Of a stretch of DNA of 64,000 nucleotides, positions 27,641-35,985 are shown in pieces. The notes beneath the pieces were generated by a model. That model saw only the letters and a program-made list of their open reading frames with translations. It made no database searches and was not told the DNA's origin. The position numbers and the translations under genes are program-made. The number at the start of each line of letters is the position of its first letter. Within the stretch, counting starts at the first letter, position 1. Origin of the DNA: Desulfuromonas sp. AOP6 (GTDB lineage: Bacteria > Desulfobacterota > Desulfuromonadia > Desulfuromonadales > SZUA-540); the NCBI RefSeq assembly GCF_009731355.2, contig NZ_AP022810.1, forward strand, positions 2,198,001 to 2,262,000. Direction: 5' to 3'.

Positions 27641-28105
27641 CATCCGCCGTTAGGGCTCAAACTGGAGATCACCGAAAGTGCCATCATGGAGGATTTCGGC
27701 ACCGCCATGATGACCCTCATCGATCTCAAGGTTCGGGGAGTCCAGCTGGCCATCGATGATTTCGGCACCGGCTACTCTTCTCTAAGCTACCTGAAGCAGT
27801 TCCCGGTGGACAAATTGAAAATTGACCGTTCCTTTATCGGGGATGTACTGCACGATGAAAATGCTTCCGCCATCACTCTGGCCATCATGGCCCTGGGACG
27901 CGCCATGAATATGACGATCGTCGCCGAGGGAATCGAAAATGAAGCCCAGGTGGAGTTTCTCACCCAGAACAACTGTGCTATCGGCCAGGGCTTCTTTTAT
28001 GCCCGCCCCATGCCCGCATCGGCCTGCGAAGAGTTTTTTCGAAAAACGCAAGCTCGCGATTGGGCCGTTATCCCTCTGGCGAAAGCACGCCAAGCCACCG
28101 GGTAG
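27641..28105 (+). pseudogene. 5'-truncated EAL (c-di-GMP phosphodiesterase) remnant
   Basis: About 150 codons match the C-terminal two thirds of an EAL domain: LKLEITESAIM, IDDFGTGYSSLSYL, LKIDRSFI, IVAEGIE and QGFFYARP follow in the right order. The EAL signature motif itself and everything before it are missing. Homology begins near 27641, where the sequence runs straight into the upstream region of the oppositely oriented EI24 gene. No plausible ribosome-binding site precedes the first in-frame ATG (27686). With the early catalytic Glu lost it cannot be an active phosphodiesterase. It reads as a deletion or rearrangement scar. An expressed truncated c-di-GMP binder cannot be excluded. Confidence 0.8.
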
Positions 28106-28156: not shown

Positions 28157-30817
28157 CTATCCTTTCAGCGCCTGAATCTTTCGCAGGCTTTCCTGCAAAA
28201 TCCCCAGCTTTTCCTCGGCTTCTCTCTGCTTGCCTCGGTCCTTCTCCAGCACCTCGGGAGGAGCATTGGCGACAAACTTCTCGTTAGAGAGTTTTTTGGC
28301 GAAGAACTCCACATCCTTCTGTACCTTGGCAATCTCCTTACCAAGACGCTTTTCTTCCTCGTCGATATTGACCAGACCCGCCAGGGGCAGCAGAATCTCG
28401 ACGTCACCGGCCACCTGGGTGGCGGCCTGATTGGGACGCTCGACGCCTACACCGTAGCTCAACTCACCGACACGAGCCAAGGCACGGATGTACCCTTCAC
28501 CGGCTGTCATCACGGTGACCGCCTCTTCTCCCTTGCAGTCAAGCACAGCGGCAATCTGTTTGGAGGGGGGAACATCCATCTCGCCGCGAATGTTGCGGAT
28601 GGCCTTGACGACATCCATGATCCATTCCATACGGCGGGCTCCGTCCAGGTTGACGGGCAAATCTTCTCCCGTGGGATAGTCGGCCAGCATGATGGAATCG
28701 ACGGGGCGGCGGCCAGGCAGCGCCTGCCAGATCTCCTCGGTAATAAAAGGCATGAAGGGGTGAAGCAGACGCAGCAATCGCTCGAGTACGGTGAAAAGTA
28801 CCACCTTGGCGCGGGCCTTGGACGCTCCGTCGTCACCATAGAGATCGTCCTTGCTGAGCTCGATATACCAGTCGCAGAACTCGTGCCAGGTGAAGGCATA
28901 GAGAATGGAGGCGCCTTCGTTGAAACGATACTCAGCGAGGGCCCGGCCTGTGTTCTGGGCCGCCTCGTTCAGACGGGTCAGAATCCACTGATCAGCCAGA
29001 GACAGGTCAAGCTGGGCCAGATCGATGGATGACGGATCAAAGTCATCAAAATTCATCAGCGCAAAGCGGCTGGCATTCCATAGCTTGTTGGCGAAGTTGC
29101 GGTAGCCGGCAATGCGCTCGGTGGAAAGCTTGACGTCACGCCCCTGGGCGGCAAAGGCAGCCAGCGTAAAGCGGAAGGCGTCGGTGCCGTATTCCTCGAT
29201 AACGGTGAGCGGGTCGATAACATTTCCCTTGCTCTTGCTCATCTTCTGTCCCTGAGCGTCGCGCACCAGGGCGTGGATGTAGACATCCTTGAAGGGGACC
29301 TGCCCCATGAACTTGATCCCCATCATCATCATGCGCGCCACCCAGAAAAAGAGGATGTCGAAGCCGGTAATAAGGCAGGAGGTGGGATAGAACTTCCGCA
29401 GGGTCTCGGTATTTTCCGGCCAGCCCATGGTGGAGAAAGGCCACAGAGCTGACGAGAACCAGGTATCGAGTACGTCTGTCTCCTGGCGGATGTTGCTGCT
29501 GCCGCAATGGGCGCAGCTCTGGGCGTCTTCCATAGCGACAGTGATCTGGTCGCAGTCGTCGCAGAACCAGGCGGGGATACGGTGTCCCCACCAGATCTGG
29601 CGACTGATGCACCAGTCCTGGATATTGTTCATCCACTCGAAATAGGTCTTCTCCCACTGCGACGGCACGATGCGTGTCTGACCGGTCTCGACGGCCTTGA
29701 TCGCCTCCTCGGCCAGGGGCCCGACCTTGACGTACCACTGTTTGCTCATGTAGGGCTCAATGACAGTGCGGCAGCGGTAGCATTCGCCGACAGCATTGGC
29801 GTAATCGTCGATGCGTTCGAGCAACCCCTGATTTTCCAGGTCGGCCACTACGTTGGCGCGGGCCTCGTAGCGTTCCTGCCCGGTATAAGAACCACCGTTT
29901 TCGTTCACCACACCCGAGGGGTCGAAAATATTGATGAATTCAAGGTCATGACGCTTGCCAAGCTCGAAGTCATTGAAATCATGGGCCGGGGTGATCTTGA
30001 CAGCACCGGAGCCGAATTCCTTGTCGACGTAGTCGTCGGCGACAATGGGGATTTCCCGGTTCATCAGTGGCAGCAGCACCTTCTTGCCGATCAGGTCCTG
30101 GTAACGACCATCTTCGGGGTTGACGGCCACGGCGGTGTCGCCGAGCATGGTCTCGGGCCGGGTGGTGGCCACGATGAGATAGCGGTCAGTGCCAATCACC
30201 GGATAACGTAGATGCCAGAGATGGCCTTTCTTGTCCTCGTGTTCGACCTCCAGGTCAGAGAGCGCTGTGTGACAACGCGGACACCAGTTGATGAGCCGAT
30301 TGTCGCGATAGATAAGACCCTCGGCATGGAGGCGTACAAAGACGGTGCGCACCGCCGTGGAGAGACCCTCGTCCATGGTGAAGCGCTCGCGCTCCCAGTC
30401 ACAGGAGGCGCCTAGGCGCTTGAGCTGATTAATGATCTGCCCACCGGACTGCTCGCGCCACTGCCAGACTCGCTCAACAAATTCTTCGCGGCCGAGGGCA
30501 TGACGGTCACGTCCTTCAGAAGCAAGCTGTTTCTCCACCACATTCTGGGTGGCGATGCCTGCGTGGTCGGTGCCGGGCATCCACAGCACTTCGTGACCTG
30601 TCATGCGCTTCCACCGCACCAGAATATCCTGCAGGGTATTGTTGAGAGCATGCCCCATATGCAGAACGCCGGTGACATTGGGGGGCGGGATGACAATGGA
30701 ATAATGGGGCTTGGAGGATTTTTCGTTGGCGTGGAAGTAACCTTTGTCCTCCCAAACCCTGTACCACTTATCTTCAACCTCTTTCGGCTCATACCCTTTG
30801 GGGAGCGATGCTTCCAT
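28157..30817 (-). CDS. valS: valyl-tRNA synthetase
   Basis: An 886-residue class I synthetase. The HIGH-type motif is in PPPNVTGVLHMGHALNN and the KMSKS motif in QKMSKSKGNVIDP. A CP1 editing domain lies between them, with a zinc-type CDDCD...CAHCG insertion. The anticodon domain follows, and the final 65 residues form the ValRS coiled-coil tRNA arm (EEEKRLGKEIAKVQKDVEFF). Length is normal. Its predicted promoter overlaps the terminator of the upstream response-regulator gene, leaving a leader of about 75 bases with no T-box-like structure that I can see. Confidence 0.96.
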   Translation of the reverse strand: MEASLPKGYEPKEVEDKWYRVWEDKGYFHANEKSSKPHYSIVIPPPNVTGVLHMGHALNNTLQDILVRWKRMTGHEVLWMPGTDHAGIATQNVVEKQLASEGRDRHALGREEFVERVWQWREQSGGQIINQLKRLGASCDWERERFTMDEGLSTAVRTVFVRLHAEGLIYRDNRLINWCPRCHTALSDLEVEHEDKKGHLWHLRYPVIGTDRYLIVATTRPETMLGDTAVAVNPEDGRYQDLIGKKVLLPLMNREIPIVADDYVDKEFGSGAVKITPAHDFNDFELGKRHDLEFINIFDPSGVVNENGGSYTGQERYEARANVVADLENQGLLERIDDYANAVGECYRCRTVIEPYMSKQWYVKVGPLAEEAIKAVETGQTRIVPSQWEKTYFEWMNNIQDWCISRQIWWGHRIPAWFCDDCDQITVAMEDAQSCAHCGSSNIRQETDVLDTWFSSALWPFSTMGWPENTETLRKFYPTSCLITGFDILFFWVARMMMMGIKFMGQVPFKDVYIHALVRDAQGQKMSKSKGNVIDPLTVIEEYGTDAFRFTLAAFAAQGRDVKLSTERIAGYRNFANKLWNASRFALMNFDDFDPSSIDLAQLDLSLADQWILTRLNEAAQNTGRALAEYRFNEGASILYAFTWHEFCDWYIELSKDDLYGDDGASKARAKVVLFTVLERLLRLLHPFMPFITEEIWQALPGRRPVDSIMLADYPTGEDLPVNLDGARRMEWIMDVVKAIRNIRGEMDVPPSKQIAAVLDCKGEEAVTVMTAGEGYIRALARVGELSYGVGVERPNQAATQVAGDVEILLPLAGLVNIDEEEKRLGKEIAKVQKDVEFFAKKLSNEKFVANAPPEVLEKDRGKQREAEEKLGILQESLRKIQALKG

Positions 30818-30961: not shown

Positions 30962-32449
30962 CTACAGGGCAGCCCCTTCCTTTATCTTGCGGATTTCTTC
31001 CTTGATCAGACTTTCCGCCAGGTCTGGAACGACCTCCCAGGCAATTTTTTCGAGAATGGTCCCCGCAAGACGTTCGACCACTTCAGCGGCAACCCGCTCG
31101 ACAATGCGAGACACTTCCGCTTCGGAGACAGCCGGCGCTTCTGCTGGGGCAGGGGTATAAGCAACAGGGACTTCCTGCGCGGGCTCCTCGAACAACGCCT
31201 CGGCAACAGTCGAAGCAGTTTCTTCGAAAACAATCGGTTCCTCATCAGCCGAAAAGGGTGTACCGAAACGGTCTTCCGGGCTTTCCTCCTCAACAGCAAT
31301 TTCAGAGGAGTCCTCATCGACAGACGCTGCGGAAGGCTCCGAAAGAAGATCCTCGTCCTCCCATCCTGCCAGATCCGCCTCCTCCAGGATATCCTCGTCG
31401 GACAAGGCCAGAATGTCCTCGATTTCCCCTTCCTCTTCCACGGACGCAGGCTCGGAAGCGGGCGTCTCGTAAGTCCCCCAGACATCCTCTTCCGCCTCGC
31501 TACTCATAAGGTCCAGGTCGGCGGTAGGCGGCTCAGGAGGGGCCTCAGGAGGGGCCTCAGGAATTCCCGGGCGGTCTGCTGTTCCCTCAAGCCCGTCCGT
31601 TTCATCACCCCACAGATCTTCGCTGGCTTCAGCGCTCATCAGATCCTCTTGGGCAGCCACCGAAGTCGAATATTCCTCGTCTTGCCAATCCTCCTCGCCT
31701 TCGACTTCGAATCCGAAATTCTCCAGGGTGGCCTCTTCTACCGGATGATCTGCCAGACTATCAGCGGCGTCTTCCTCTTCGCCAAAGGCCTCGGTCTCTT
31801 CATCCCACAGGTTTTCATCGGCCTTAATAGTCGCTGCTTCCTGCCCCAATTCCTCTTCGTCGAAAGAAACATCCGACCAGAGATCCTCATCGGACCCAGC
31901 ACCGCCGTCCCCAGATTTCGCCACAGGGGATTCGAGGGGTTGGACAGGTGCGGCGACGGCAGGCTCAAGTTCCTCCCACATGTCCGCTTCAATTTTTTCA
32001 CTCGGGACAGGCGCACTTGAAGGATCCAACAACGGTGCTTCGGCTTCTGCCATTTCGGAGATCTCGGCAGAGATATCTTCGGCGGCGGCCAGCAGCTCTT
32101 CGACTTTCCTGATGAGGGCCTGTGATTCAAAAGGCTTGGCAATCCAGCCATCCGCTCCACAGGCGCTGGCTTTATTTTCGTCAAAGGGTTCGAAGGTTCC
32201 GCTTAAAAGCAGAACGGGCACACCTTTAAGCCCCCCTTCCTGCTTGATAGCCGCGCAAAGCTCATAGCCGTTTTTCCCGGGCATGAACACATCGGCAAGT
32301 ACCAAATCGGGACGGCTGGTGCGGGCTTTTTCCAGAGCGGCGTCACCGTTGTCAACAACGACCAGGTCGTAATCTTCGCTGGCAAAGGTAATGCTTATGA
32401 CTTTCTGGATGGTAATACTGTCGTCGGCCAACAACAGTTTTTTGCTCAT
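30962..32449 (-). CDS. response regulator with long acidic region and C-terminal helices
   Basis: A 495-residue protein. Residues 1-125 form a complete receiver (D9, D10, phospho-acceptor D53 in LADVFMPG, AKPF). Residues about 130-430 are very acidic and low in complexity, with short recurring units (EDLWSD, ENLWDE, EDLWGD, EDVWGT) and a PEAPPEAPPEPP stretch. The last 55 residues return to amphipathic helix (RIVERVAAEVVERLAG, then EVVPDLAESLIKEEIRKI). No DNA-binding or enzymatic output domain is present. The layout of acidic linker plus short C-terminal helices recalls the polar organiser PopZ, but this is resemblance by eye. AAGGAGG precedes the ATG. Confidence 0.8.
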   Translation of the reverse strand: MSKKLLLADDSITIQKVISITFASEDYDLVVVDNGDAALEKARTSRPDLVLADVFMPGKNGYELCAAIKQEGGLKGVPVLLLSGTFEPFDENKASACGADGWIAKPFESQALIRKVEELLAAAEDISAEISEMAEAEAPLLDPSSAPVPSEKIEADMWEELEPAVAAPVQPLESPVAKSGDGGAGSDEDLWSDVSFDEEELGQEAATIKADENLWDEETEAFGEEEDAADSLADHPVEEATLENFGFEVEGEEDWQDEEYSTSVAAQEDLMSAEASEDLWGDETDGLEGTADRPGIPEAPPEAPPEPPTADLDLMSSEAEEDVWGTYETPASEPASVEEEGEIEDILALSDEDILEEADLAGWEDEDLLSEPSAASVDEDSSEIAVEEESPEDRFGTPFSADEEPIVFEETASTVAEALFEEPAQEVPVAYTPAPAEAPAVSEAEVSRIVERVAAEVVERLAGTILEKIAWEVVPDLAESLIKEEIRKIKEGAAL

Positions 32450-32689: not shown

Positions 32690-33730
32690 TTATAAAATCT
32701 TCCAGGGCTGGGGCAGAAAAAGCCGGTGATACAAATTGATGGCAAAGCGGTCCGTCATGCCCGCGATAAAATCGGCAACGGAAATCTCAAGAGGATCCCC
32801 GCAGAAACGATCACCTCCATGAGCCACCAGCGCCTCCTCGTTCTGCATGAAAAAGAGAAACAGTTCCCGTAGGATACGAGAAGCCTTGATGAAATCGTCA
32901 TGGACGGTTCTGACCTGATACACATGAACAAACAACCATTCTCGCAGAGCGTCAATGGCTTCAACAACAGCAGGAGACAGCGATATACCCCCTCCATCTA
33001 TACAGAGCGAGGCCTGGATCATGTCACAAACCATCGTGTTGATCCTCTGGGAGTGACTACACCCAAGAACATCTACAATGGCTGCCGGGACCTGTCCCTT
33101 ATGGATAAGGCCAGCACGAAGTGCGTCGTCAAGGTCATGATTGACATAGGCAACAATATCAGCCAACCGTACGATCTGACCTTCCAGGGTTTGCGCCCTT
33201 ACGGCAGGATCCTTGGCCAGAATAGGTCCTCTCCCCTTGGAGTGCTTGACGATACCGTCACGAACCTCTTCGGTCAGGTTAAGCCCCTGCCCCTCCTTTT
33301 CCAGGCAATCGACCACACGCAGACTTTGCAGAACATGATGAAAGCCACCTGTCACCAGTTCACTCAGCACCTTTTCGCCGGCATGACCAAAGGGCGTGTG
33401 GCCCAGGTCATGACCAAGCGCAATGGCCTCAGTCAAATCTTCATTCAGACGAAGAGCCTTTGATACAGTGCGGGCAATCTGGGCTACTTCGAGTGTGTGG
33501 GTCAGGCGAGTACGATAATGATCACCTTCCGGAGCCAAAAAAACCTGAGTCTTATGTTTAAGACGTCGAAACGATTTACAATGGAGTATGCGATCCCGGT
33601 CATGCTGAAAAGCAGTGCGTACGGCACAAGGGTCCTCCGGTTTTTTACGTTTACCACCATGACCGCTCAGACAGGCATGAGCTGACAGAGAAGTCTGTTC
33701 TTGTCGTTCGAGCTGTTCTCGGATAGTCAT
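32690..33730 (-). CDS. dgt: dGTPase-like HD-domain triphosphohydrolase
   Basis: A 346-residue HD-superfamily enzyme expected to cleave dNTPs, typically dGTP, to nucleoside and triphosphate. Metal ligands are seen in TRLTHTLEVAQIAR, ALGHDLGHTPFGHAGE and, later, DIVAYVNHDLDDA. FRRLKHKTQVF is the N-terminal family signature. The short form (about 350 residues) matches the dGTPase-like group and not E. coli Dgt (505 residues). The ribosome-binding site is weak (AAGG). A TATAAT box lies only 14 bases before the ATG, giving a very short leader. Confidence 0.88.
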   Translation of the reverse strand: MTIREQLERQEQTSLSAHACLSGHGGKRKKPEDPCAVRTAFQHDRDRILHCKSFRRLKHKTQVFLAPEGDHYRTRLTHTLEVAQIARTVSKALRLNEDLTEAIALGHDLGHTPFGHAGEKVLSELVTGGFHHVLQSLRVVDCLEKEGQGLNLTEEVRDGIVKHSKGRGPILAKDPAVRAQTLEGQIVRLADIVAYVNHDLDDALRAGLIHKGQVPAAIVDVLGCSHSQRINTMVCDMIQASLCIDGGGISLSPAVVEAIDALREWLFVHVYQVRTVHDDFIKASRILRELFLFFMQNEEALVAHGGDRFCGDPLEISVADFIAGMTDRFAINLYHRLFLPQPWKIL

Positions 33731-34119
33731 AAAAACCTTATAAATTATAGTTTATGTTTGTTAAAAAAGCTCCACTAGAATTGACTTAACCCCGTTGTCA
33801 TGGCAACACAAAAGTTACCCGCGGAAGTGAGACTTTTAAAAGATCAAAGGGATTCTAAAATCGTTTATGGCAACCATCCCACAGAAGACGCCCTTGTTTC
33901 GGTGTATGTTATGGCCTCGTCTTGAAAATTGTCACGAATTGAAACAAACCATCCCGTCTAAAACTAACACAGAGGCCTTTATCAGGAACAAGTTTAACAG
34001 TTATAAACAACTAAAATAATTTTTCCTCTTGATTTTAAAGCCAACAATTGTTCTATTATAGCTTTTTATCACCAATTGATATCACAATAAACCCCACATC
34101 AAACAGGAGGAAGATCCCC
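33731..34119. other. 389-base intergenic region between dgt and the MucR-type gene
   Basis: AT-richer than its surroundings. It holds the dgt -10 box at one end and the ribosome-binding site of the MucR-type gene (ACAGGAGG) at the other. A small inverted repeat, GTTG-TCATGG-CAAC, lies at about 33795-33808. A TTGATT (34029-34034) and TATTAT (34054-34059) pair has a 19-base spacer and is only a weak promoter for the regulator. I see no tRNA, coding frame with a ribosome-binding site, or riboswitch. The size and AT content would suit autoregulation by an AT-binding zinc-finger protein, which is inference. Confidence 0.5.
33744..33749 (-). promoter_or_regulatory. possible dgt -10 box
   Basis: A perfect TATAAT on the minus strand. 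The -35 region is poor (GAGCTT about 17 bases upstream). Confidence 0.3.
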
Positions 34120-34554
34120 ATGGCAACACTTCTCGAAATGGCTGCCGAAATTGTTGCGGCCCACGCATCGACCACGCCCATGTCCCGCGACGAACTGGTC
34201 GCCGAACTCAGCGAAATCCACAACGCTCTCAGCGCCCTTGAAAAAGGTGAAGCTATTGCAGCCGAAGCGGAAACCATCGAAGTGCCCGCTGTTTCACGCA
34301 AGAAAGCCTTCGGCAAGGATAAGGTTACCTGCATGATCTGCGGCAAAGAGATGAAGACACTGGCCCGTCACCTGCGTACGGCCCACGACATGAAACCCAG
34401 CGAATATCGCAAGCAGTTCGACATCCCCCGCACGCAGCCCCTGGCTGCCCGCTCCTATTCGGAAAGCCGGCGGCAAATGGCCGTCGACAGGGGTTTGGGC
34501 GAGAATCTCGCCAAAGCCCGGGCGGCCAAGAGCAAGACAAAAGCTAAAAAGTAA
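34120..34554 (+). CDS. MucR/Ros-family zinc-finger transcriptional regulator
   Basis: A 144-residue regulator with the prokaryotic Ros/MucR zinc finger: C71, C74, H84 and H89 in CMICGKEMKTLARHLRTAH, followed by the family's MKPSEYRKQFDIP. The N-terminal half (MATLLEMAAEIVAAHAS...) is the helical oligomerisation region, and the C-terminus is a Lys/Ala-rich basic tail. Family members bind AT-rich promoters in the minor groove and often repress many genes, including their own. The long AT-rich upstream gap fits that. AGGAGGAAGATCCCC precedes the ATG. Confidence 0.92.
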   Translation: MATLLEMAAEIVAAHASTTPMSRDELVAELSEIHNALSALEKGEAIAAEAETIEVPAVSRKKAFGKDKVTCMICGKEMKTLARHLRTAHDMKPSEYRKQFDIPRTQPLAARSYSESRRQMAVDRGLGENLAKARAAKSKTKAKK

Positions 34555-35211: not shown

Positions 35212-35985
35212 ATGAAACGCGTCATCGTCGGCGACAAGCGAGAAAAGGTTCTTACAACACTCGAAGTCATTCTCAAACATTGGGGATACAGGGTTGTGGT
35301 ATCTTCGCGTCCTGAGCAAATAGAGGCTTTTTTGCTGGAGACATCCCCGGACCTGCTGTTCATAGGGGCCCATTTCCTGCAAAACGACCACAGAAAACTT
35401 GCAAATGCCACTGGAGAAAAAGCAGCCGACAAAAATTGCCCCCTGGTGGTTCTTAAGGACAACGGCTTGCCGATTCCTGCCAACCTCCCATGCGAGAGCC
35501 TGGATGTCCCTATCGGACTGTTCGAACTCTACGCTATGATCCAGAAACACCTTGAAAAAACTCCGAGGAAAAACTTAAGGTTGGACCTCAAACTCCCTGG
35601 CGTTCTCTATCGCGATGGTTCTCCTCATCTGTCAGAAATCCTCAGCCTGAGCGAGCAGGGCCTTTTTATCCGCAGCGCCTTTCGCCTGGCACAAAATGAG
35701 CCGCTTCAGGTCATCTTTCCCCTGATGGGGATGAAAAAAGAACTGGAGATTGAGGGACGGGTTCTGTACAACGTTCTGCCCGCGCCAGAGAACAACTATC
35801 TGCAAGGCTCTGGCGTAGAATTCCTCCACCTGACCGCACAAGACCTACTTTGTCTGCAGCGTTTCATTGAAGGTTGCTTTCTCGGTGAAATGTCTCCGAG
35901 CGAAAGAAGCCTTATGGATCTGACGGAGGATCAGATTCAGGGCCTCGACCAGGAAGTTTCATTGAAACTTATCAGCAGTCACTGA
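35212..35985 (+). CDS. pseudo-receiver plus PilZ-domain protein
   Basis: A 257-residue protein. The first 120 residues fold like a receiver (MKRVIVGDKREKVLTTLEVI...PDLLFIGAHFL), but the aspartate normally found after the third beta strand is replaced in LLFIGAHF and only one acidic residue remains in the first pocket. It is unlikely to be phosphorylated. Residues about 125-235 resemble a PilZ domain (RKNLRLDLKLPGVLYRDG, EILSLSEQGLFIR), the c-di-GMP receptor fold, with the SLSEQG turn matching the DxSxxG motif loosely. It may read c-di-GMP and not phosphate. AAAGGA lies upstream of the ATG. Confidence 0.78.
   Translation: MKRVIVGDKREKVLTTLEVILKHWGYRVVVSSRPEQIEAFLLETSPDLLFIGAHFLQNDHRKLANATGEKAADKNCPLVVLKDNGLPIPANLPCESLDVPIGLFELYAMIQKHLEKTPRKNLRLDLKLPGVLYRDGSPHLSEILSLSEQGLFIRSAFRLAQNEPLQVIFPLMGMKKELEIEGRVLYNVLPAPENNYLQGSGVEFLHLTAQDLLCLQRFIEGCFLGEMSPSERSLMDLTEDQIQGLDQEVSLKLISSH

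Follow-up and report, generated by a model that had tools for sequence, protein, structure and literature searches.

An acidic, tryptophan-dotted RomR orthologue upstream of valS in Desulfuromonas sp. AOP6 and its suggested common ancestry with PopZ

A bacterial protein in which a phospho-receiver is joined to a long acidic tail raises the question of what it serves, and whether its likeness to the polar organizer PopZ, proposed in an initial annotation, reflects membership of that family, common descent or chance. Such a protein is encoded in the window, the whole 64,000-nucleotide stretch of Desulfuromonas sp. AOP6 DNA (contig NZ_AP022810.1) analysed here. With a probability of about 0.88 it is RomR, the scaffold protein with a receiver in the MglA/MglB/MglC module of cell polarity; its receiver, its RomR-C residues and the finding that the genome encodes all three Mgl proteins support this identity. 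The locus comprises the following features.

30962..32449, minus strand: romR orthologue, 495 aa with an ATG start, made of receiver, acidic linker and RomR-C (open reading frame list; blastp to Myxococcus xanthus RomR, locus L064)
32087..32449, minus strand: receiver domain, residues 1-121 (PF00072; blastp against M. xanthus RomR)
32291-32293, minus strand: codon of the phospho-acceptor D53 (residue check)
31130..32086, minus strand: acidic, predicted disordered linker, residues 122-440 (pLDDT; D/E against K/R counts)
31469..31984, minus strand: span of four D[LIMVF]W units (W158, W191, W280, W324) with ENLW and EEDW variants (motif counts)
30968..31123, minus strand: C-terminal helix, residues 443-494 (AlphaFold2 model)
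30983..31051, minus strand: RomR-C core EKIAWEVVPDLAESLIKEEIRKI, residues 467-489, with E467, K468, W471, P475 and E479 (conservation)
28157..30817, minus strand: valS, 144 bp downstream of romR, a conserved neighbour (open reading frame list; comparison of loci)
32690..33730, minus strand: dgt-like HD phosphohydrolase, lying upstream of romR in some members of the order (Pfam HD and HD_assoc; tblastn in loci)

Three plus-strand frames in the surroundings were also observed. A short one at 27686-28105 aligns with no more of the EAL domain than its final 99 positions and resembles the remnant of a c-di-GMP phosphodiesterase gene. Another at 34048-34554 is by Pfam a ROS/MUCR regulator, a family best known from Alphaproteobacteria, and the frame at 35212-35985 encodes a stretch resembling a degenerate receiver followed by a PilZ domain; its protein had no meaningful match to the RomR receiver profile.

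The Pfam scan of the window protein bore out the intact phospho-receiver that had been claimed for it, as PF00072 matched residues 6-116 at E 1.7e-21 and the key residues D9, D10, D53, S83 and K105 are all kept. No other domain of the 495-residue protein exceeded the Pfam cut-off, and to that extent the earlier statement that a classical output domain is missing stands; the C-terminus, however, is the characterised domain RomR-C, which no Pfam entry of any name matched and whose profile found no match among solved structures at E<=10. In the AlphaFold2 model (37 sequences) the receiver is confident and the linker, in agreement with the disorder expected of it, is mostly predicted at pLDDT below 50, chiefly across residues 155-432. 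The sequence ends in IKEEIRKIKEGAAL as described, with the difference that the terminal helices are modelled as one long helix, residues 443-494, and not as several short ones.

Comparison by blastp with the M. xanthus protein (L064) revealed 68 of 121 identical residues in the receiver (56%, E 2e-44) and 15 of 25 at the C-terminus. RomR has been described as a receiver, an unstructured linker that varies by taxon and a RomR-C region with invariant Trp, Pro and conserved Glu, and the same account includes members from Geobacter and Pelobacter (PMC3441718). The window protein carries the motif EKIAWEVVPxLAE with the MglC-contacting residues, and its E467/K468/W471/E479 share the spacing of E390/K391/W394/E402 in M. 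xanthus, where residues 371-420 are reported to form a trimer and bind MglC, W394 is crucial for that binding, and E390, K391 and E402 touch MglC, on which K104 and R106 form the other side (PMC12719032). W471, P475, E467 and E479 occupy conserved columns, the invariant ones being judged over 56 sequences. RomR-C is present as a single copy in the genome, and this C-terminus was found in 56 of 58 relatives. The bacterial genome scan, from which 80 of 105 relatives were kept, among them the romR locus of M. xanthus strain AM003 (L064), used patterns of the window protein, so that the core motif is over-represented in it. Two RomR proteins (L142 and G069:C63) were seen to carry a tandem pair of RomR-C units. 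Separately, a record titled Comamonas sp. KCTC 72670 (L059) holds a Myxococcus-like romR-valS locus and is probably mislabelled.

Like RomR of M. xanthus (MXAN_4461), the window protein thus combines a D53 receiver, a disordered linker and a RomR-C with invariant Trp, Pro and Glu, with its gene directly upstream of valS and MglA/MglB/MglC as partners; the residues ahead of the EKIAW core differ, and so does the linker. About 300 acidic, low-complexity residues had been noted, and counts of 102 D/E against 5 K/R in the 315 residues 126-440 confirm them (32% D/E and 9% P), whereas the M. xanthus linker holds 3% D/E, 35% P and no Trp. As these linkers have no obvious likeness, their functions may differ. 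The recurring ED-L/V-W units are likewise real: four of the seven linker Trp stand in D[LIMVF]W, against a shuffle mean of 0.13, and none of 5000 shuffles of the same linker reached four. Across the 26 linkers of the same order with a readable receiver (within L001-L030), 55 such units were counted (shuffle mean 2.1, maximum 7 in 500 shuffles), with at least one in 21 of the 26, and Asp preceded Trp by two positions in 69 of 99 cases (background 10%). These counts are not independent, since the sequences are related, and more weight falls on the repetition inside a single protein. Part of the set shares a further conserved stretch, E-x-I-x2-L-x-E-x-D-I-L. Our guess is that some partner probably docks on these short D-[LIMVF]-W units, which would then provide a disordered scaffold of the pole with a defined docking motif open to test. 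Taken by itself, the protein is a RomR of the ordinary kind whose linker is acidic and dotted with Trp.

The partners expected of RomR are encoded in the same genome. An MglB-MglA pair (L111) is 66% and 79% identical to that of M. xanthus, MglA matching the solved MglA at 8e-104, and an MglC homologue (L113) matches the solved MglC at E 6.4e-24 with K104-G-R106 kept. Orthology, conservation on both sides of the RomR-MglC interface and the presence of all three partners are therefore observed directly in this analysis. Two further relatives of these partners were noticed: a second MglC-like roadblock protein (7.6e-11; L112:1480-1842), adjoining a gene that we take to be FtsY-like, and a second MglA-like GTPase (G000:C1:1098316-1098894), 56% identical to MglA and lying within a 337-aa frame.

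M. xanthus RomR is reported to localise to the pole and form trimers (PMC10329633, PMC12719032), and D53 substitutions alter reversals (PMC3441718). By analogy with it, RomR-C of the window protein would form oligomers (trimers in M. xanthus) and set the protein at the cell pole, the E467/K468/W471/E479 face would dock on an MglC dimer, and this dimer would recruit MglB, which acts as GAP on the small GTPase MglA. The system may then be biased by D53 phosphorylation, which would determine the pole at which active MglA and the machinery of surface motility (presumably type IV pili) are found; the long acidic linker would act as a flexible spacer. Oligomerisation, polar position and the effect of phosphorylation are here inferred from M. 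xanthus. The self-assembling, receiver-bearing scaffold that the initial annotation had suspected is accordingly supported through orthology to RomR, a self-associating polar scaffold.

The gene romR lies directly upstream of valS in Desulfuromonadales and Myxococcota, and the same order is found in M. xanthus (L064) and on a Holophagales contig (L084). Of 104 RomR-C loci, with some genomes counted twice, 95 had valS next, no more than 1 kb away and in the same orientation, 8 did not, and one was too short to tell; in the set found without motif patterns, valS followed romR in 30 of 30 loci. In A. tumefaciens and C. crescentus popZ is likewise reported to precede valS (PMC5686542), and it did so in three of the four plasmid-collection records taken (L118-L120, not L117). 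When the gene upstream of valS was read regardless of product, valS being recovered in 81 of 89 genomes, the closest 30 loci by ValS gave 18 upstream genes matching at least one of four profiles (E<=0.01 at Z 3000) and 12 matching none, although the genomes of at least four of the 18 (L173, L181, L184, L201) had also supplied sequences for the profiles. A G139 protein (L179, whole in L203) that is absent from all profiles scored 3.3e-8 with RomR-C and 1.8e-4 with the PopZ profile.

Desulfobacterota hold several forms of the gene, mostly at this position. The RomR-C profile matched 66 of 198 genomes of the phylum, and the 40 loci read fell into 21 of the Trp form, 17 without receiver and Trp, and 2 with a weak receiver without Trp; the receiver was recognisable in 20 of the 21 Trp-form loci, L138 being cut by the contig end. 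PF10691 (DUF2497), the PopZ model, gave 10 matches at E<=0.1 in the 198 genomes, none above the cut-off, and four of them (L163, L164, L168, L169) lie directly before valS, where chance would place about one gene in some thousands by our estimate. The RomR-C and PopZ profiles, both blind to position, thus lead to the same gene upstream of valS. The receiver-less proteins (L145-L154, L156, L157, L163, L164, L168, L169) share a RomR-C-like or PopZ-like C-terminus, an acidic middle and mostly the place before valS, and differ in having no receiver, no MglC-contact Trp and mostly [DE]xIIELTD near the N-terminus, with canonical MglA absent in the genomes tested. Between the forms stand L160, L162, L203 and L204, in which a domain resembling a receiver (E 3e-11 to 2e-18 with the RomR-receiver profile, Z 3000; above the Pfam cut-off in L203 only) is joined to a [DE]xIIEL motif or near form, an acidic middle, a C-terminal helix and an adjoining valS. 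L166 combines a receiver with an end resembling that of PopZ and does not lie near valS, and L171 is of the L164/L168 kind, with no valS on its 7-kb contig.

Several candidates were set aside. The PF10691 matches L165, L167, L170 and L172 were dropped as unrelated, being broken or frames of other protein types, presumably TetR-type and acyl-CoA dehydrogenase proteins; four Geobacteraceae frames with weak RomR-C scores (L044, L048, L050, L051) were dropped because their ends are, as we take them, like SecA. A second weak RomR-C match in G049 (L121), a frame with a EKISWEVGEALAES stretch, was taken as chance likeness, and none of 47 PopZ pattern matches in viral contigs was confirmed.

Canonical MglA, defined by E<=1e-100 to the MglA of the window genome, goes with the form that has both Trp and receiver and not with the others: it was found in 17 of 19 genomes with the former and in 0 of 25 with the latter (16 receiver-less, 4 pseudo-receiver, 5 found by PF10691), for a Fisher p of 2.5e-10 that ignores kinship. 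Among these 25, 11 hold a more distant MglA-like GTPase and 14 none; G161 and G120, which belong to neither class and have no match, were left out.

How the protein stands to PopZ can be weighed from these observations. Were it a genuine PopZ of this phylum, fused to a receiver and serving ParB and centromere anchoring instead of MglA, the common plan, linker composition and C-terminal likeness would be accounted for; like the window protein, PopZ of Alphaproteobacteria has an acidic, proline-rich disordered middle and a C-terminal helix with P-x3-E-x2-[LIV]-x2-E-[IV] spacing. PopZ, however, lacks a receiver, has its own N-terminal helix (EPSM[DE]EIL[AS]SI in L117, L119, L120) and passes DUF2497. 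The profile search proposed at the outset returned no PF10691 match for the window protein at E<=10 and none in its genome, while Caulobacter was matched in the control and L117 and L119 passed at 2.7e-25 and 1.5e-23. The client-binding helix H1 is absent, residues 6-116 being the receiver. For the oligomerising C-terminal helices H3-H4 of PopZ, likeness is seen between profiles but stays below significance for the family. With DUF2497 unmatched and the receiver in the place of the PopZ N-terminus, the protein is not PopZ by membership, and with the RomR-specific Trp and Pro present and canonical MglA, MglB and MglC in the genome, a fused-receiver PopZ is most improbable. Its C-terminal helix belongs to another characterised family, RomR-C, an outcome named beforehand as speaking against the PopZ reading. 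That part of the PopZ reading falls; what survives is a kinship that profiles, valS synteny and intermediates suggest, namely one ancestral gene.

We consider it likely that RomR and PopZ are branches of one ancient family, whose gene has stayed in front of valS and encodes a polar hub that is acidic and disordered and ends in an oligomerising helix. A receiver and a Trp that contacts MglC would distinguish the branch serving MglA. Where canonical MglA is lacking, the receiver would have decayed (L160, L162, L203, L204) or be missing, through decay or because it was never gained (L145-L157 and others); the outcome would be PopZ-like proteins in Desulfobacterota and, in Alphaproteobacteria, PopZ itself. 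A common origin of RomR-C and the PopZ C-terminus in a single gene is suggested by hhalign, which aligned RomR-C (56 sequences) with PopZ-C at probability 74.6 and score 25.2; none of 400 column shuffles reached this score, and 3 of 400 did when the hydrophobic pattern was preserved, although the PopZ profile is made of four sequences, two nearly identical and one provisional. On 9052 open reading frames this profile gave 75 matches at E<=10, of which 71 are RomR (of 104, many near-copies), and the best two non-RomR matches of the RomR-C profile were the PopZ ends of Sinorhizobium meliloti and Shinella (E 0.0055 and 0.009, Z 10000). When 24736 Pfam models were set against the 56 RomR-C sequences, DUF2497 came up more often than any other family (5 of 56, best E 0.041), the window protein itself not being among the five. 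Profile pairs linked RomR-C to the receiver-less set (98.3%, 0 of 100 shuffles), the receiver-less set to the PF10691-found set (96.6%, 2 of 100), the latter to PopZ (97.0%, 0 of 100) and RomR-C to the PF10691-found set (94.6%, 2 of 100), with odd shuffled-profile maxima of about 140 in two comparisons; the choice of sets helps the first and third of these pairs, and gives no help to the second, nor to the synteny.

Against common descent it counts that no protein in the 198 Desulfobacterota genomes passes the DUF2497 cut-off, that none of 10 receiver-less proteins scanned by Pfam matches it at E<=10, that the receiver-less set meets PopZ weakly (62%, 3 of 100 shuffles), that one set (mid2) was picked by its likeness to PopZ, and that 12 of the 30 valS loci lack a profile match. 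These unmet cut-offs could also speak for convergence, in which two unrelated amphipathic, Glu-rich oligomerising helices came to lie before valS by chance, and short low-complexity helices do reach similar scores, as in the 3 of 400 shuffles above and 2-3 of 100 in three of five pairs. Convergence leaves the position and strand common to both groups as coincidence, along with the intermediates at that very position, the 12 of 17 receiver-less genes found before valS and a second common motif ([DE]xII[DE]L[TV][DE] or a near form in 15 of 17 receiver-less proteins, with 4 of 5 intermediates and 2 of 4 PopZ), and it appears unlikely. Descent of RomR and PopZ from one family would explain why PopZ was seen in this protein, and it is compatible with its identity as RomR.

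In the open-access literature, preprints aside, works with both PopZ and RomR handle them, in the text retrieved, as separate or use PopZ as a tool, none was found with RomR together with valS, and none joined PopZ, MglA, evolution and polar organizing. Given this coverage, the link between RomR and PopZ is likely, though not certainly, unpublished.

If the common ancestry is true, two textbook polar hubs would share an ancestor, and the way PopZ assembles would be relevant to how RomR reaches the pole. The gene preceding valS would then serve as a landmark for polar organizers in genomes where none is known, including those that carry the receiver-less form.
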